This document shows positions 17,352 through 24,315 of a stretch of 64,000 bases of DNA, piece by piece (the first letter of the stretch is position 1; every line of letters starts with the position of its first letter). The stretch covers positions 1 to 64,000 of the forward strand of contig NZ_JADPCH010000002.1 of NCBI RefSeq assembly GCF_015670745.1. The letters are read 5' to 3'. A program made the translations under genes and the position numbers. A model generated the notes under the pieces. That model saw nothing but the letters and a program-made list of their open reading frames with translations. It was not told the origin of the DNA and ran no database searches. This stretch comes from Collinsella aerofaciens. Lineage in GTDB: Bacteria; Actinomycetota; Coriobacteriia; Coriobacteriales; Coriobacteriaceae.

Positions 17352-17936
17352 CTACTCCTCGACGGAGTCGACAACAGCCTCGGCGGCGTCCGAATCCTCG
17401 GCCAGCACGCCAGCCTCAGCCTGGGCAACCGCAACCTTGGCGGCCGCCTCGGCAGCCTGGGCCTCCTCGCGAGCGCGATCCTCGGCCAGCAGCTCCTGGT
17501 AAAGGTCCTCGCCCGGCAGCTCCTCGCTGCGAGCAATCTTACCCAGCACGCCGTTGACGAACGACGCGGACTGGTCGGTGCCATAGGCCTTGGCAAGCTC
17601 GACGGCCTCGTTGATCACGATGGCGTCCGAGACCTCCTCATCGGTGAGGAAACGCATCTCGTAAACGGCGATACGCAGCAGATTGCGGTCGGCGCCGGGC
17701 ATGCGCATAAGATCCCAGTTCTTGGCAACGGAGCGCAGAGCGCAGTCGATGCGGTCGATATGCTCGTAGGCGCCGCGGCAAAGCTCAAGCGCATAGGGGT
17801 CGAGGGGACCCTTCGAGATCAGGAAATCACCCTCGAGGACGCGCTCGAGCGGGCTGTCCGTGGCCTCGGCCTGGAACAGCAGCTGCAGCGCCTGACTGCG
17901 GGCAAGCGTACGCCCGCGATAAACCTTAAGGCTCAA
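17352..17936 (-). CDS. nusB: Transcription antitermination factor NusB
   Basis: Binds boxA RNA with NusE (S10) to promote rRNA antitermination. The 194-residue protein has the all-helical NusB core at residues 8-145 (RSQALQLLFQAE, ADRNLLRIAVYEM, NEAVELAKAYG, FVNGVLGKIA). A roughly 50-residue Ala/Glu-rich helical tail follows (AREEAQAAEAAAKVAVAQ), which E. coli-type NusB of about 140 residues lacks. It follows asp23 by 3 bases and abuts xseB. Confidence 0.94.
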   Translation of the reverse strand: MSLKVYRGRTLARSQALQLLFQAEATDSPLERVLEGDFLISKGPLDPYALELCRGAYEHIDRIDCALRSVAKNWDLMRMPGADRNLLRIAVYEMRFLTDEEVSDAIVINEAVELAKAYGTDQSASFVNGVLGKIARSEELPGEDLYQELLAEDRAREEAQAAEAAAKVAVAQAEAGVLAEDSDAAEAVVDSVEE

Positions 17937-17939
17937 AGG

Positions 17940-18302
17940 TTACTCCTTGGGGAAAACGAGGCCGTCGATGCAAACGTCAACGCGCTCGACCTCAACGCCA
18001 ACCTGGGCATCGATGGCGGCGACCACTGCGGCGCGAACGGCCTCGGCGAGTTTCTTGAACGGATAGCCAAAGAACACCACGACACGCACGGTGAGCGCGA
18101 GCTTGTCGCCGACGACCTCGGCCTCGACCGCCGGCTCGGAAGCCGGGGCCTTGGACGAGAGCATCATGGAGACAAGGTTGGTGGCAAGGTCCTTGACGCC
18201 AACGGAGGCGATGCCCTCGACATCGGACACGGCGCGCGAGACGATGGCGGTCAGAACATCGGGCGAAATGCCGATACCGTCAATCTTGATTTCCTGGGGC
18301 AT
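17940..18302 (-). CDS. Asp23/Gls24 family envelope stress protein
   Basis: A 120-residue Asp23-domain protein: GISPDVLTAIVSRAVSDVEGI is the family start and the rest alternates strands and helices typical of the domain. In staphylococci such proteins lie at the membrane and respond to envelope stress. Located between efp and nusB, as yqhY is in Bacillus, where the gene is linked to fatty-acid synthesis. A second, partial Asp23 gene is at the right edge of the window. Confidence 0.88.
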   Translation of the reverse strand: MPQEIKIDGIGISPDVLTAIVSRAVSDVEGIASVGVKDLATNLVSMMLSSKAPASEPAVEAEVVGDKLALTVRVVVFFGYPFKKLAEAVRAAVVAAIDAQVGVEVERVDVCIDGLVFPKE

Positions 18303-18326: not shown

Positions 18327-18890
18327 CTAGACGCGGGAGACGAACTTGCCGTCGCGGGTGTCAACCTTGATGACCTCGCCCTCGTTGAGGTACATGGGGA
18401 CCTGGATGACAGCGCCGGTATCGATCGTGGCCGGCTTGGTGGAACCCTGGACGGTGTCGCCCTTAAAGCCCGGGTCGGTCTGGACGATGGTGGTCTCGAT
18501 GAACATCGGCGGGGTCACGCCCATGAGCTCATCGTCGGCGAAGAGCAGCTGGCAGACGTCGTTCTCGCGCAGCCACTTGGAGTTCTCGCCCACCATGTCC
18601 TCGGGAACGGGAACCTGCTCATAGGACTCGTTGTCCATGAAGATGTAGTCGGTGCCATCGTTGTAGAGGTACTGGAACTCACGGGTGGTGAGCATGACGC
18701 TCTCGAACTTGGTGCCGGCGTTGCAGGTGTTCTCGACGACGCGGCCGCTCTTGATGTCGCGGGTCTTGTAGCGCACAAACGCGCCGCCCTTGCCCGGCTT
18801 GACATGCTGGAACTCGACGATGGTGTAGACCTTGTCCTTGATGCGGAGACCGAGGCCGTTCTTGAAGTCGGCGGTAGAAATGGTAGTCAT
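18327..18890 (-). CDS. efp: Translation elongation factor P
   Basis: Relieves ribosome stalling at polyproline stretches. The 187-residue protein has all three beta-barrel domains. The tip residue is K34 in VKPGKGGAF, the site modified in many bacteria; the enzyme for this is not visible here. The C-terminal signature TKPATIDTGAVIQVP is complete. The start MTTISTADF is preceded by GAAAGG. It is downstream of pepP, the usual pairing, but a terminator lies between them, so it has its own promoter. Confidence 0.96.
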   Translation of the reverse strand: MTTISTADFKNGLGLRIKDKVYTIVEFQHVKPGKGGAFVRYKTRDIKSGRVVENTCNAGTKFESVMLTTREFQYLYNDGTDYIFMDNESYEQVPVPEDMVGENSKWLRENDVCQLLFADDELMGVTPPMFIETTIVQTDPGFKGDTVQGSTKPATIDTGAVIQVPMYLNEGEVIKVDTRDGKFVSRV

Positions 18891-18982
18891 AGCGACCTTT
18901 CTTGTTATGGGCAGAACGCACAAGCGTCCAAATTACATACGACAGAAATTATACACTTGCAGACGGCGCCTGCAGCGAGCGC

Positions 18983-19050: not shown

Positions 19051-20181
19051 CTAGCAGTCGATAACGTGCAGGTCGTGCGGGGTCTTGGTGAAGGGCTCGT
19101 AGCCGTTCTCGGTGACCACGCCGTAGTCCTCAAGGCGCACGCCGCCCACGCCGGGCAGGTAGACGCCGGGCTCCATGGTGACAACCGAGCCGATCTCGAT
19201 GGTGTTCTTGCTGCGGTTGAAGTTGGGCAGCTCGTGGATGTCGATGCCCACGCCGTGGCCCAGACCATGGTTGTAGTAATCACCATAGCCGGCATCGCCG
19301 ATGATCTTCTTGGAAAGCTTGAAGATGTCGTTACCCTCAACGCCCGGATGGATGGCGGCGACGCACTCCTCGTGCGTGCGGCGCACGAGTGCGTACAGGT
19401 CGAGCTGCTCCTGGGTGGGCTCGCCCATCACGACAGTGCGCGTCATATCGGAGCGGTAATCGCAGTAGCCCGCGCCGTAATCCATGAGAACGAAGTCGCC
19501 CTTCTCGATGACACGGTCACTCGGCACGGCATGCGGGTTGGCGGTGTTGGGGCCGCTCGCCACAATGGAGCCGAAGGCCAGGCTGTCGGCGCCGTTGGCG
19601 AACATAAAGTTCTCGAGCTCGTTGCGAACCTGCTTCTCGGTCATACCGGGCTTAATAAAGCCGAGCATGTGCTGGAAGGCGGCGTCAGTGATCGACTGTG
19701 CATGGCGCATGAGCTCGATCTCCTCGGCATCCTTGATGGCGCGCATCTTGCGGATGTCGTCGTGCATCAGCGGCAGCATGCAGGCGACGGAACGGTCCTC
19801 CAGGCCGCGCTGAATACCCTGGTAGAAGTTAATCTGCATATCGTCCTCGACAGCACAGACACGGCACTTGTTAGCCGCAATCTTGCCGGCGACCCAGCCG
19901 GGGATGGTACCCTCGTCCATGTCGTAGACCCAGGGGCTGCCGGCGGGCGTGTTCTCCTCAAAGCTGTTGAGGTAGCGCGAGTCGGTGTGGAACAGGCACT
20001 GGTCGACCGTAATAAACGCAGCGTGCGGGAACTCGAAGGTGTAGTCGAAGACGCCCTTCACGCCCGTAAGCCAACGAAGGTTGGCCTCGTCGCGCACCAC
20101 GATGGCATCGTAGCCACGCTCGGCCATCAGGGCACGGACACGCTCGATACGACCGGCAGGACCGGCAGCAAACTCAGACAT
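19051..20181 (-). CDS. pepP: Xaa-Pro aminopeptidase (M24 family)
   Basis: Removes an N-terminal residue next to proline. The 376-residue metallopeptidase has a creatinase-like N-domain (1-135) and the pita-bread catalytic domain. Metal ligands are visible as MDYGAGYCDYRSDMTRT (two Asp), HGLGHGVGIDIHE (His), VTMEPGVY (Glu) and VRLEDYGVV (Glu). The start MSEFAAGPAG has AAAGGAATCTGC upstream. It follows the aroB-like gene across a 130-bp gap with a possible folded RNA, and precedes efp as in Bacillus. Confidence 0.92.
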   Translation of the reverse strand: MSEFAAGPAGRIERVRALMAERGYDAIVVRDEANLRWLTGVKGVFDYTFEFPHAAFITVDQCLFHTDSRYLNSFEENTPAGSPWVYDMDEGTIPGWVAGKIAANKCRVCAVEDDMQINFYQGIQRGLEDRSVACMLPLMHDDIRKMRAIKDAEEIELMRHAQSITDAAFQHMLGFIKPGMTEKQVRNELENFMFANGADSLAFGSIVASGPNTANPHAVPSDRVIEKGDFVLMDYGAGYCDYRSDMTRTVVMGEPTQEQLDLYALVRRTHEECVAAIHPGVEGNDIFKLSKKIIGDAGYGDYYNHGLGHGVGIDIHELPNFNRSKNTIEIGSVVTMEPGVYLPGVGGVRLEDYGVVTENGYEPFTKTPHDLHVIDC

Positions 20182-20313: not shown

Positions 20314-21423
20314 TTAGAGAAGTTCTTTACGAGAAGCCAAGTAGGCGTGAGCATGGCGCTCAAGAACCTCGTCCTCAACGTTCGTTAGGCGAATTGCGCC
20401 GAGTGCCGCGGGCAGCGGCAGCATGCTGCGGTTTGAGCGCGCGAACTGCTGTCTGCGGAACTCCTCGATATATGCGGCAGGCTCCAGATCGAAGGCAAGT
20501 TCCTCGATACCAAAGTCCTCCAGACAGTCATCGACCTCAAAGACGTAATCGATATCGAAGTCGCAGGCGTCGTGGGCAAGGCGCGCCTCAAAGCGCATGC
20601 CCTCGGACAACAGCTGGTAGGCAGGGACCTGCGAAGCGGCATCGCCCAAGCAAGCGCGCAAGGTACGCTCCCCCGTCTTGCCAAAATCGAGCGCATGGCG
20701 GGCGCTCGGGTTCGTGGCCATCAGTACGTCCTTGCGAGCAGTCTGAGACCATTGAACGGCATTGACGAGCGCGACCTCCTCGCCCGCGAGAATCTCGGGG
20801 ACGGTCTCAATAAACTGATTCCAGCGGGACTTGCTGCTCGAAAGCATGGTGCCAACAAGTACCGCATAGCCGAGCTTGAGGTCCTCGGGGTCCGCCTCGC
20901 GAACAAGATCGAGGTCACACACGACCAAACCCGGTTCGGGACGGAACGCGATAGCGGGAAGCGCATTGGCCGACGAGGCGACAAGCGGCTTCATGGTCGT
21001 CGCGACCGTGAGCATGGCGTCGAAGGTCGTCGGCAGCAGCGCGCACTCGGTTCGGCCACACCACTGGTTGGCGCACCAGCTAACAACCGAGCAGGTTGCG
21101 GCATCGCCAACGGCGACAACCAGATCGTCGCAGGTAACGCCGTTGGCAGACAGGGCGCCAAAGATAGCATCAGCATCGGCCAGCGTGGCACCAGCAGGCG
21201 AAACCTCGAGGACTAGCGGCGACACGGCAAAACCGGCGTCGACCAGCGCATGCTCGACGACTTCACCAAAACGCTCGGATGTGGCGGTGTTCCAAACGAC
21301 CATCGCGCGCTTAGGCTTGCCCACGGCCGAGGCAAACATACGCGACAGCTCATCGAACGCACCCAATCCGACACGGACATCGACGCTGCGGTTTTGGAAA
21401 TTGATCAGTTGACGGCGAATCAT
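20314..21423 (-). CDS. 3-dehydroquinate synthase-like protein, active site degenerate
   Basis: By position next to aroK and by overall pattern (VVVWNTATSERFG, PTTFDAML, EDLKLGYAVLVG, ARHALDFGKTG) this 369-residue protein belongs to the AroB family, which makes dehydroquinate from DAHP with NAD and a divalent metal. Several catalytic motifs are altered. The metal site FGHTxGHA reads FGKTGER, so both histidines (expected near 249 and 253) are Lys and Arg. The VDSSVGGKT motif after PTT is absent. The HGEAVA motif reads LSEGMRFE. The glutamate of the EVIK motif is kept. It starts with ATG overlapping the aroK stop. It is full length and not frameshifted, so either it has a new role or the pathway is non-functional. 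Confidence 0.75.
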   Translation of the reverse strand: MIRRQLINFQNRSVDVRVGLGAFDELSRMFASAVGKPKRAMVVWNTATSERFGEVVEHALVDAGFAVSPLVLEVSPAGATLADADAIFGALSANGVTCDDLVVAVGDAATCSVVSWCANQWCGRTECALLPTTFDAMLTVATTMKPLVASSANALPAIAFRPEPGLVVCDLDLVREADPEDLKLGYAVLVGTMLSSSKSRWNQFIETVPEILAGEEVALVNAVQWSQTARKDVLMATNPSARHALDFGKTGERTLRACLGDAASQVPAYQLLSEGMRFEARLAHDACDFDIDYVFEVDDCLEDFGIEELAFDLEPAAYIEEFRRQQFARSNRSMLPLPAALGAIRLTNVEDEVLERHAHAYLASRKELL

Positions 21424-21953
21424 AGCAGCCCACGCTCCAAAAGCATCTCGGCACAAAGGTAGGAAACGTCCTCGAAGGACTTGTTGCGAATATCAAGGGT
21501 AAGGTCGGCAGCCTGGCGATACAGCGGACGGCGATGCTCAAACAGGCGCGCGGCATGCTCAGGCGAGCGGAAATCGGGGCGCGTGTCGGACCGACGAATC
21601 TGGCGAATCGAATCCTCGAAGTCGCCCTCGAGGTACACGCACGTACCCATTTCGTGCATCAGCTCAATATTCACCGGTGTCTCGACGATACCGCCCCCGC
21701 ACGAAACCAACAGGCTGCGCTCACTTTGGAGCGAACGGAGCGCCGAGGTCTCGAGCTCGCGAAAACGATCCTCGCCCTCGGTCTCAAAAATCTCGGTTAC
21801 CGACTTGCCGCAACGGCGCACGACCAGGCGGTCGGTATCGATAAAACGCCGCTTGAACATGGTGCCGACGTTGCGCGCGAGCGTCGACTTGCCCGCGCCC
21901 AAAAAGCCGATAAAGAAGATATGGTCGCAGCCGTGTTTGGTGTGCTGGGACAT
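21420..21953 (-). CDS. aroK: Shikimate kinase
   Basis: Phosphorylates shikimate at the 3-OH. The 177-residue protein looks intact: Walker A GFLGAGKST, the DTD metal/shikimate motif, FRELE, CGGG, the lid arginine in DTRPDFR and the adenine-binding RRPLYRQAA. The start MSQHTKH follows the YqeG-like phosphatase closely and its end overlaps the aroB-like gene by 4 bases, so the two are coupled. It contrasts with the degenerate neighbour. Confidence 0.93.
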   Translation of the reverse strand: MSQHTKHGCDHIFFIGFLGAGKSTLARNVGTMFKRRFIDTDRLVVRRCGKSVTEIFETEGEDRFRELETSALRSLQSERSLLVSCGGGIVETPVNIELMHEMGTCVYLEGDFEDSIRQIRRSDTRPDFRSPEHAARLFEHRRPLYRQAADLTLDIRNKSFEDVSYLCAEMLLERGLL

Positions 21954-21961
21954 AGCGAGAC

Positions 21962-22459
21962 CTATTCCTCGCAGGGAAGGTCGCGCAGGGCCCGGCGCTC
22001 AAAGATACGGAAGATCTGCGTATACCACAGGTCCTGCGTCGCCTGCGGCTTTACCAGGATGGTATCGACGCCGGCGAAATTACCGCTCCACACGTCAGTG
22101 TAGAGCTGATCACCGATCAGCACCGCCTCGTCGACCGTGGCGCCGAGGCGCTTAAGACCCGCCTTGAGGGCAAACGGCGCCGGCTTCATGGCGTGGCTGA
22201 TGGCCTCGAGTCCCAGCTCGCGTGCTGATGCCATGACCTGGTCGCGATGCCAGTTGTTGGACACCATGCACAGCTTAAAGCCTTTGGCGCGGGCGGTATC
22301 GAGCCAAGCGGAAACCGCGGCGGGAACCTGCTCGGTGTCGCGCGGCACCAGGGTGTTATCGCGATCGAGCAGAATGGCGCGTTTGCCGTCGGCCCAAAGG
22401 GTATCAAGGTCGATGCGATCGACCGAGGCAACGTAACGTTTGGGGCTAAAAATCCTCAT
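21962..22459 (-). CDS. YqeG-family HAD phosphatase
   Basis: A 165-residue HAD-superfamily IIIA hydrolase. Motif I is LLDRDNTLVP, motif II is VSNNWH, motif III the lysine in KPAPFALKAG, and motif IV IGDQLYTDV. YqeG proteins are related to phosphatidylglycerophosphate phosphatases, though the substrate here is unproved. The start MRIFSPKRYV overlaps the mltG stop (TAGCATG). The open frame extends further upstream, but only in an out-of-frame overlap with mltG. In Bacillus yqeG also sits near the shikimate genes. Confidence 0.85.
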   Translation of the reverse strand: MRIFSPKRYVASVDRIDLDTLWADGKRAILLDRDNTLVPRDTEQVPAAVSAWLDTARAKGFKLCMVSNNWHRDQVMASARELGLEAISHAMKPAPFALKAGLKRLGATVDEAVLIGDQLYTDVWSGNFAGVDTILVKPQATQDLWYTQIFRIFERRALRDLPCEE

Positions 22460-22460
22460 G

Positions 22461-23894
22461 CTAATTCCAAGACTGTTGATGCTCTTCGTAGGTTTGCGAG
22501 AAGTACTCCTCGTCCTGCGTAATGTAGAAATACAGGTCATCAGAGTCGGTCGGCTCAAGGGTGGCCTTGAGCGCCTCGAGCGACGGAGAGCAGATGGGCG
22601 TGGGCGGCAGGCCCTCATGCTTATAGGTGTTATACGGACTATCGCTCTGCAGGTCGTCGGCGGTAACCTCGCCACCGGTGACATACATCATAGTCGCATC
22701 GCTATTGAGATAGCGCAGGCCATCGAGCTTGCCGGCAAGGCGGTTGTAGAAAACCGAGGCCACATGCGCACGTTGATCGGCGTTGAGGCCCTCGCGCTCA
22801 ACGATAGAGGCCAAGTTGATGATGTCGTAGTCGGACATCTCCACACCGTAGCGTTCCTTGATCTTGGCTTCGCAGCTCGCAAAGTCAAGCGACTTGTACT
22901 CGGTCTTAAACTGATCGAGCATAGCGCGAATCACGCCATCGGCCGTCGGCGAATCACCCAACGAATAGGTCTTGGGGAACAAGAAACCCTCGAGCGAATC
23001 GTTGGCGGCGCCCTTAAGGAAGCTATAGTCGTCCACGTAGTTGGAGGCCTTGGCCTGGTTGAGGAAGTCTTCCTTAGAGATGCTGTCGTAGGCCTGGGCC
23101 ACACGGTCGGCGACTTGATCGACCGTCAGGCCCTCAGGGATAGTCAGCGCACTGGAGCCCGCGTTGGGGCCTTCCATGAGCTGCTGAACAACCTTGGTCG
23201 CATCCATGAGTGTGGTGAACGAATAATCACCAGGCTTGAGCGACATATCGGCGTTGAGCTTTTTCACCGCCGCATAATAATCCTTGGGATTTTCGACGAT
23301 ATGGTTCTCGGAGAGAATCGAGGCGATAGTATCGCCCGAAGCACCATCGGGAATGGTCACCGTAACCTGCTGACCAGCCGTGACCTTCGTATCCTCACCG
23401 GCAAAGAAGCCCTTGACGGCCGGCACGACAAAGAATGCGATCGCAGCAAGCGCGAGCACCGACACCACAACGCCGATGATCATCGGAACCGGAGAACTCT
23501 TCTTTTGAGCACCGCGACGAGCATGCGTGTTGTAGCTCGAGCGGGTCGCCGGAGCAACGCCATGCGAACCGCGAGCGTGATGCGAATGCGATTGAGGGGC
23601 CTGAGTTCGCTGGGTAGGTGCCTGCTGCTTAAAGCGGGTACCGCCTGCTGGCTGGGCCGTACGAGCAGTGGGCTGCTGAGCCGCGTGAGAAGCCGAATGC
23701 TGAACCGAACGAGCAGAAGGCTGCTGACCCGTCCGTTGAACAGGTTGGGCCGAATGAGAGAAGGACTGCGCCGGGCGCGCGGCAGGCTGAGCTGCACGCT
23801 GCGTCGGCTGTGCCGGACGCTGGCCAGGCTGGGCAGGGCGCGACGCCGGCTGCCGTGTACGATTCTGCTGGCGCGGATCGGAAGCGCTAGGCAT
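22461..23894 (-). CDS. mltG: Endolytic murein transglycosylase MltG
   Basis: Cuts nascent peptidoglycan strands and so limits glycan length. The 477-residue protein has a cytoplasmic N-terminal region of about 110 residues that is almost wholly Gln, Pro, Arg, Ala and Ser, with repeated PAQ/TAQ units. One membrane helix follows (IIGVVVSVLALAAIAFFVV), then the extracellular YceG domain with the catalytic glutamate E366 in ASIVEREG. The start MPSASDP has GAGGAGG 6 bases upstream; it overlaps the ruvX end. The low-complexity N-terminus is far longer than in E. coli MltG and may interact with division proteins. Confidence 0.92.
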   Translation of the reverse strand: MPSASDPRQQNRTRQPASRPAQPGQRPAQPTQRAAQPAARPAQSFSHSAQPVQRTGQQPSARSVQHSASHAAQQPTARTAQPAGGTRFKQQAPTQRTQAPQSHSHHARGSHGVAPATRSSYNTHARRGAQKKSSPVPMIIGVVVSVLALAAIAFFVVPAVKGFFAGEDTKVTAGQQVTVTIPDGASGDTIASILSENHIVENPKDYYAAVKKLNADMSLKPGDYSFTTLMDATKVVQQLMEGPNAGSSALTIPEGLTVDQVADRVAQAYDSISKEDFLNQAKASNYVDDYSFLKGAANDSLEGFLFPKTYSLGDSPTADGVIRAMLDQFKTEYKSLDFASCEAKIKERYGVEMSDYDIINLASIVEREGLNADQRAHVASVFYNRLAGKLDGLRYLNSDATMMYVTGGEVTADDLQSDSPYNTYKHEGLPPTPICSPSLEALKATLEPTDSDDLYFYITQDEEYFSQTYEEHQQSWN

Positions 23895-24315
23895 GCGAAA
23901 CCTCCTCGTTTTTACGATCGAGCCACGTCTGCAAAAACAGGCTGGCGGCAATCATGTCGATCTTGCCCCTCATCTGCTTTTCGTTGAGTCCCTGCTCGCG
24001 CAGGATACGCTTAGCCTCTTGCGAGGACAGACGCTCGTCCTCAAACTCCAACGGAAGATCGAGCTCGTCGGCAATCTTTTGCGCCACAGCGGCAACGCGC
24101 TCGGCCTGAGGGCCGGGCTCACCGGCCATGGTCAGGGGACGTCCGCTTACCAGGATGTCGGGCTCATAGTCCTCAACCAGGTAGCGGAACGTCTTGGCCA
24201 TACCGGTGACCTCGGCAGCCGGAAGCACCTTGACAGGCATCGCCATCTTGCCATCACGGCTCGAGACGGCGATGCCAATCCTGGTCTCCCCTATGTCCAG
24301 CGCGAGCGCAACCAC
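23887..24315 (-). CDS. ruvX: RuvX/YqgF family Holliday junction resolvase-like protein
   Basis: A 142-residue RNase H-fold protein thought to process pre-16S rRNA or Holliday junctions. Acidic catalytic residues are in LALDIGETRIG near residue 7 and FEDERLSS near residue 95. GTG start, with AGAAG upstream. It lies 17 bp after alaS and overlaps mltG, an alaS-ruvX-mltG order common in Gram-positive bacteria. Confidence 0.92.
   Translation of the reverse strand: MVALALDIGETRIGIAVSSRDGKMAMPVKVLPAAEVTGMAKTFRYLVEDYEPDILVSGRPLTMAGEPGPQAERVAAVAQKIADELDLPLEFEDERLSSQEAKRILREQGLNEKQMRGKIDMIAASLFLQTWLDRKNEEVSHA

Follow-up and report, generated by a model that had tools for sequence, protein, structure and literature searches.

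The window, by which we mean the whole stretch of 64,000 nucleotides of Collinsella aerofaciens DNA analysed here, carries on its reverse strand an aroB-like gene, hereafter aroB', embedded between a shikimate-kinase-family gene (aroK2) and a pepQ-like gene (Table 1). The frame of aroB' is complete, running from an ATG at 21423 without internal stops, and is thus full length and in frame, as a preliminary description of this DNA had it. TIGR01357 (aroB) is the top family match of the product, with 46.2 bits (E 3.5e-12) against a curated cut-off of 305, and the Pfam DHQ_synthase match is sub-threshold (13.5 vs 24.2). As reference for the motifs we used the canonical AroB of the same genome, which is encoded in an operon on another contig (C33). 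In the alignment, the canonical NAD motif GGGVVGD corresponds to GDAATCS in AroB', VDSSVGGKT to LTVATTMK, GCGEVVKH to GYAVLVGT and NFGHSAGHA to DFGKTGERT, and LGHGNC is absent. The earlier reading of the motifs (FGHTxGHA turned into FGKTGER, VDSSVGGKT gone, HGEAVA altered) is therefore right, both against this AroB and against 55 relatives of AroB'.

Table 1. Features of the aroB' locus, in window positions
Feature	Position	Strand	Remarks
NusB	17352..17936	(-)	conserved neighbour
Asp23-family protein	17940..18302	(-)	conserved neighbour
Elongation factor P	18327..18923	(-)	conserved neighbour
Xaa-Pro peptidase family (PepQ-like)	19051..20181	(-)	conserved downstream neighbour
AroB-like pseudoenzyme AroB' (probable)	20314..21423	(-)	369 aa; DHQS fold that lacks the Zn and NAD residues and most of the DAHP pocket
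Altered ligand motif FGKTGER (canonical FGHTxGHA)	20663..20683	(-)	codons 247-253; position computed from the start at 21423
aroK2 stop/aroB' start overlap, 4-nt ATGA	21420..21423	(-)	translational coupling
AroK2, shikimate-kinase family	21420..21953	(-)	177 aa; retains its catalytic residues; Arg110->Gln118, Leu119->Asp127 (window numbering)
HAD-family hydrolase (PGP-phosphatase-like)	21962..22684	(-)	conserved upstream neighbour; frame probably longer than gene
YceG/MltG-like protein	22461..23951	(-)	conserved upstream neighbour

The catalytic site of AroB' is lost across two families

We compared 55 AroB' sequences column by column with seven AroB from the ancestral locus of the class (described below) and four operon-type AroB, using A. 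nidulans residue numbers that we take to be those of the 1DQS structure. All three zinc ligands (Glu194, His271 and His287) are lost or variable among the 55 AroB', whereas this alignment with Coriobacteriia homologues, which had been proposed as a check, showed the same ligands to be conserved in the class-locus AroB (7/7) and in the operon AroB (4/4). K152, N162, K197 and N268 are gone from AroB' as well, and the NAD motif GGGxxGD is not preserved, D119 being replaced by Ser in 52 of the 55. K250 has become Arg in 53/55 (R230 in the window protein), R264 is kept in 52/55 (R242 in the window protein) and H275 has become Arg in 41/55. When the 11 DAHP-pocket residues listed for the S. aureus and M. 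tuberculosis enzymes (PMC6262012) are considered, only Arg242 (M. tuberculosis numbering) is kept, Lys228 is Arg, and the rest are lost or variable. Single alanine changes at five pocket positions remove almost all activity of the M. tuberculosis enzyme (PMC6262012), and 5/5 of these mutation-tested residues are lost in AroB'; at the metal ligands, a double His-to-Lys change kills the DHQS domain of Candida Aro1 (PMC9074039). Intact ligands elsewhere in the chain were ruled out by the alignment and by full-length superposition of a structural model on solved DHQS. Judged by its sequence, AroB' lacks the features that define a dehydroquinate synthase, and it should not be classified as such.

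The two arginines and the substituted His275 might be taken to line the old cleft of a new enzyme, one that would convert an anionic metabolite with neither metal nor NAD, and the strong purifying selection and the full, high-confidence fold described below would suit such an enzyme. However, we found no conserved acid/base or nucleophile set replacing the lost one in the AroB' alignment, the invariant positions fall mostly outside the columns of the old catalytic site, and R230 is missing, in the alignment, from the very divergent AroB' of two lineages (G326 and L203), so that we regard a new enzyme as improbable.

What has been retained differs between classes of position: 5/45 universal AroB positions are still present in AroB', compared with 7/25 positions specific to the AroB of the class (defined as occurring in at most 20% of other AroB), among them E274, R277, D298 and H357. 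This difference (Fisher p = 0.10) is only suggestive of an excess retention of class-specific residues, and such an excess could partly reflect common descent or fold stability. The kept class-specific residues are mostly charged (D15, R17, E274, R277, D298 and H357); R277 occurs in 57/57 and D298 in 56/57 AroB', and both occur in 9/9 class AroB and in 0/26 other Actinomycetota AroB.

AroB' keeps its fold and is under purifying selection

An AlphaFold2 model of AroB' (pLDDT 93.2, pTM 0.92) has the two-domain DHQS fold, and its top PDB matches are all DHQS, over the full length, at TM 0.84-0.89. Across 10 genomes of the C. aerofaciens group, dN/dS was 0.094 for AroB', 0.032 for AroK2, 0.023 for pepQ and 0.057 for the operon aroB; AroB' thus evolves under purifying selection, with the highest value of the four genes compared. 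It is also the fastest-changing of six genes, with a mean identity of 46% within the family of the window (f1; neighbours 56-83%) and of 30% between this family and an Atopobiaceae-like family (f2). Such fast change also fits a weakened constraint.

A second operon has taken over dehydroquinate synthesis

The genome (2.1 Mb in 44 contigs, 99.4% complete) was searched for a second aroB and for the other pathway genes, as had been suggested, and C33 proved to hold a complete operon, aroF-tyrA-aroB-aroA-aroC-pheA-aroE::aroK-aroQ. Its AroB scores 344 bits with TIGR01357, above the cut-off of 305, and carries VDSSVGGKT, FGHSAGHA and GHGN. The operon encodes its kinase as the C-terminal half of a 416-aa AroE::AroK fusion (L034:4018-5268, contig C33), which is present in f1 and f2 genomes alike. 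The preliminary description had left a choice between a true dehydroquinate synthase elsewhere, with the window gene as a paralogue, and an organism that cannot make dehydroquinate and salvages later intermediates. The latter is refuted for this genome, which encodes the DAHP synthase AroF, canonical AroB, AroQ, AroE::AroK, AroA and AroC, and in which nothing spoke for salvage; we consider it practically out of the question. The former holds as to the synthase on C33, but "paralogue" needs refinement, the window gene being the original and the operon AroB its replacement.

The history of the locus bears on this point. An Eggerthellaceae-like family (f3) and further members of the class encode a catalytically intact AroB at this locus, in the gene order aroE-aroC-aroK-aroB-aroQ-pepQ-efp; in f1 and f2 the order at the same locus is mltG-HAD-aroK-aroB'-pepQ-efp, and aroE, aroC and aroQ have disappeared from it. 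In a maximum-likelihood tree AroB' forms one clade (SH-aLRT 100) that joins beside the class-locus AroB, and operon AroB forms a separate clade (100) that groups towards the AroB of other Actinomycetota. The signature AEGMRFxARL is common to AroB' and class AroB, where operon AroB reads SIGMGIITRA. Because gene order, tree and class signature agree, they identify AroB' as the original, vertically inherited AroB of the class Coriobacteriia and the working operon AroB as its replacement; catalysis was lost once, in the lineage of Coriobacteriaceae and Atopobiaceae. In the lineages of L113, L117, L203 and L258 the gene for the HAD hydrolase is separated from aroK or aroB' by a prepilin-peptidase-like gene (Peptidase_A24 in L258).

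The neighbouring kinase has an altered ligand pocket

AroK2 matches PF01202 with 130.5 bits (cut-off 22.1), and its P-loop, DxD and GGG motifs and its equivalents of Arg58, Arg117 and Arg136 are invariant or nearly so. Two positions (M. tuberculosis numbering) have changed in 54/54 f1/f2 proteins, Leu119 to Asp and Arg110 to Gln, with Leu and Arg in 5/5 class relatives; the seven-residue spacing of Arg110 and Arg117 fits this assignment. In the M. tuberculosis enzyme, Leu119 lies in the lipophilic shikimate pocket and Arg110 contacts the nucleotide (PMC7144000). The pocket Asp, along with the retention of AroK2 in a genome devoid of the pathway (see below), hints that its substrate has changed from shikimate. 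The claim that AroB' is coupled to a normal shikimate kinase thus stands as to the overlap and the catalytic residues, but "normal" is too strong for a kinase with two changed ligand-pocket positions. The ATGA overlap was present in every f1 genus-level pair of a first comparison and in nearly all other pairs examined. It also occurs at class aroK-aroB loci with a catalytic AroB, and is therefore inherited and provides no new evidence of a tie between AroB' and AroK2. In Coriobacteriia bacterium S30M_St_1 (L203), where AroB' is very divergent (391 aa), the GGG motif of the adjoining AroK reads CGDG, and the kinase of this lineage may itself be inactive.

AroB' outlasts both the pathway and the kinase

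AroB' is present in 66/67 f1 genomes sampled (the exception being a genome that is 72% complete; one more copy in this family is broken) and in 90/91 f2 genomes sampled, and its frames are full length in nearly all of these about 157 genomes of two families. Some Atopobiaceae matches had been flagged for stops inside; since intact frames of at least 369 aa cover the match in the loci checked, they were not counted as pseudogenes.

One loss and one broken copy stand out. A well-assembled f2 genome (G162, genus g27) has lost AroB' and kept the operon, and is a useful comparison for co-lost genes. In G044 (contig C2, 485000-497000, L047) AroB' is broken: residues 1-113 follow aroK, the end of alaS runs on in frame into residues 214-369 (a frame of 1006 aa), and mltG and HAD fragments are duplicated, which points to either a rearrangement or an assembly chimera.

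Several lineages separate AroB' from the pathway, from the kinase or from both. An f1 genome in one contig (G191; 2,115,681 bases, 99% complete) has the AroK-AroB' pair still in place and lacks canonical aroB, aroC, aroE::K and aroA. AroB' occurs without a neighbouring AroK in a rabbit Atopobiaceae genus (g21; five loci, plus G207) and in G363. A 1.0-Mb genome that is 94% complete (G326) lacks AroK2, aroB, aroC and aroE::K; its AroB' is divergent but full length and has the usual neighbours. A gap at chorismate synthase in G033, which has most of aroE::K at 95% identity, was treated as an assembly problem. Pathway, AroK2 and AroB' are hence separable by loss, AroB' being in most cases what remains. 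A heterodimer with canonical AroB was rejected as its sole role, AroB' persisting where canonical AroB is absent (G191 and G326).

Because AroB' is retained in G191, g21 and G326, shikimate synthesis does not depend on it, and it is not in decay. A redundant aroB that is turning into a pseudogene might be expected from its identity, which is below that of its neighbours, its top dN/dS among four genes, the one loss (G162) and the one broken copy (G044); against this weigh a dN/dS of 0.09, near-universal full-length frames, a confident fold, invariant residues and the presence of AroB' in a reduced genome of 1.0 Mb, which leave decay very improbable.

The same genomes bear on whether AroB' serves AroK2 as a dedicated subunit, regulatory or scaffolding, in a complex where AroB' would sense a ligand and control a kinase whose substrate has shifted from shikimate. 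The overlap at nearly all pairs, the change of both proteins in the same two families, the two substitutions of AroK2 at shikimate-pocket and nucleotide positions and the survival of both proteins in the pathway-less G191 are as expected of such a complex. Yet AroB' persists without AroK2 in g21, G363 and G326, which weakens the case for an obligate subunit, and the overlap stems from the ancestral catalytic operon. We therefore regard a dedicated AroK2 subunit as unlikely, though it deserves to be kept in mind.

Discussion

AroB' descends from an active enzyme, has lost the catalytic residues and is under purifying selection, as is found in pseudoenzymes. An AroB that lacks its active site, whose step has passed to a replacement operon, and that is maintained by selection independently of the pathway and of AroK2, is in our judgement probably a pseudoenzyme, retained for a non-catalytic role that has lasted longer than its catalysis. 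The second shikimate operon would have taken over dehydroquinate synthesis in an ancestor shared by Coriobacteriaceae and Atopobiaceae. No longer needed as a catalyst, AroB' would then have lost its Zn, NAD and DAHP sites and kept the fold and the class-specific residues, with two arginines staying at former substrate positions, R230 (Lys250) and R242 (Arg264). We infer that AroB' catalyses no reaction and acts instead through binding or scaffolding, its partner being either an anionic ligand or another protein. The non-catalytic role may already have existed beside catalysis in class AroB, or may have been gained early, and the replacement would have laid it open. In genomes with AroK2, both proteins are made together via the 4-nt overlap; because of this joint production and of the shifted ligand pocket of AroK2, the kinase is the first candidate partner, albeit one that cannot be the only one. 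More tentatively, class AroB may have had a second, non-catalytic function before the replacement, which stripped the enzyme and exposed that function, and AroB' might possibly form with AroK2 a repurposed kinase/pseudoenzyme pair acting on a non-shikimate metabolite.

AroB' is a natural experiment in which the catalysis of a textbook enzyme is set apart from what would be its hidden role, and its residues and species set mark where that role should be sought. For annotation and metabolic models of Collinsella and relatives, neither AroB' nor AroK2 should be counted as a pathway enzyme.

Pseudoenzymes as such are already known, but the literature searched yielded no free-standing one from the shikimate pathway that occurs almost throughout two bacterial families and remains after the entire pathway has gone. 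With AroB itself (TIGR01357; 3QBD, 3OKF and 1DQS) AroB' shares the full-length fold, ancestry and the class gene order with aroK and pepQ-efp, but it is devoid of the Zn ligands, the NAD motif and 5/5 mutation-tested pocket residues, and scores 46 bits against 305. AroK2 has the P-loop, DxD, GGG and the equivalents of Arg58, Arg117 and Arg136 of shikimate kinase, but differs from AroK in Leu119->Asp and Arg110->Gln and in having survived in a genome that lacks the remainder of the pathway. The sugar phosphate cyclases (2-deoxy-scyllo-inosose synthase, EEVS/ValA and DDGS) belong to the same superfamily and have the same fold as AroB'; they keep the metal and NAD sites and change substrate, whereas AroB' loses both sites. 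Akin to AroB', the inactive type I DHQase domain of Candida albicans Aro1 has lost its active site and kept its fold while another, unrelated enzyme (Dqd1) carries out the step (PMC9074039). That domain lies within a multi-enzyme, serves dimerisation and can be lost without a growth defect (PMC9074039), whereas AroB' is free-standing, has been maintained in two families and persists after the pathway itself is lost.
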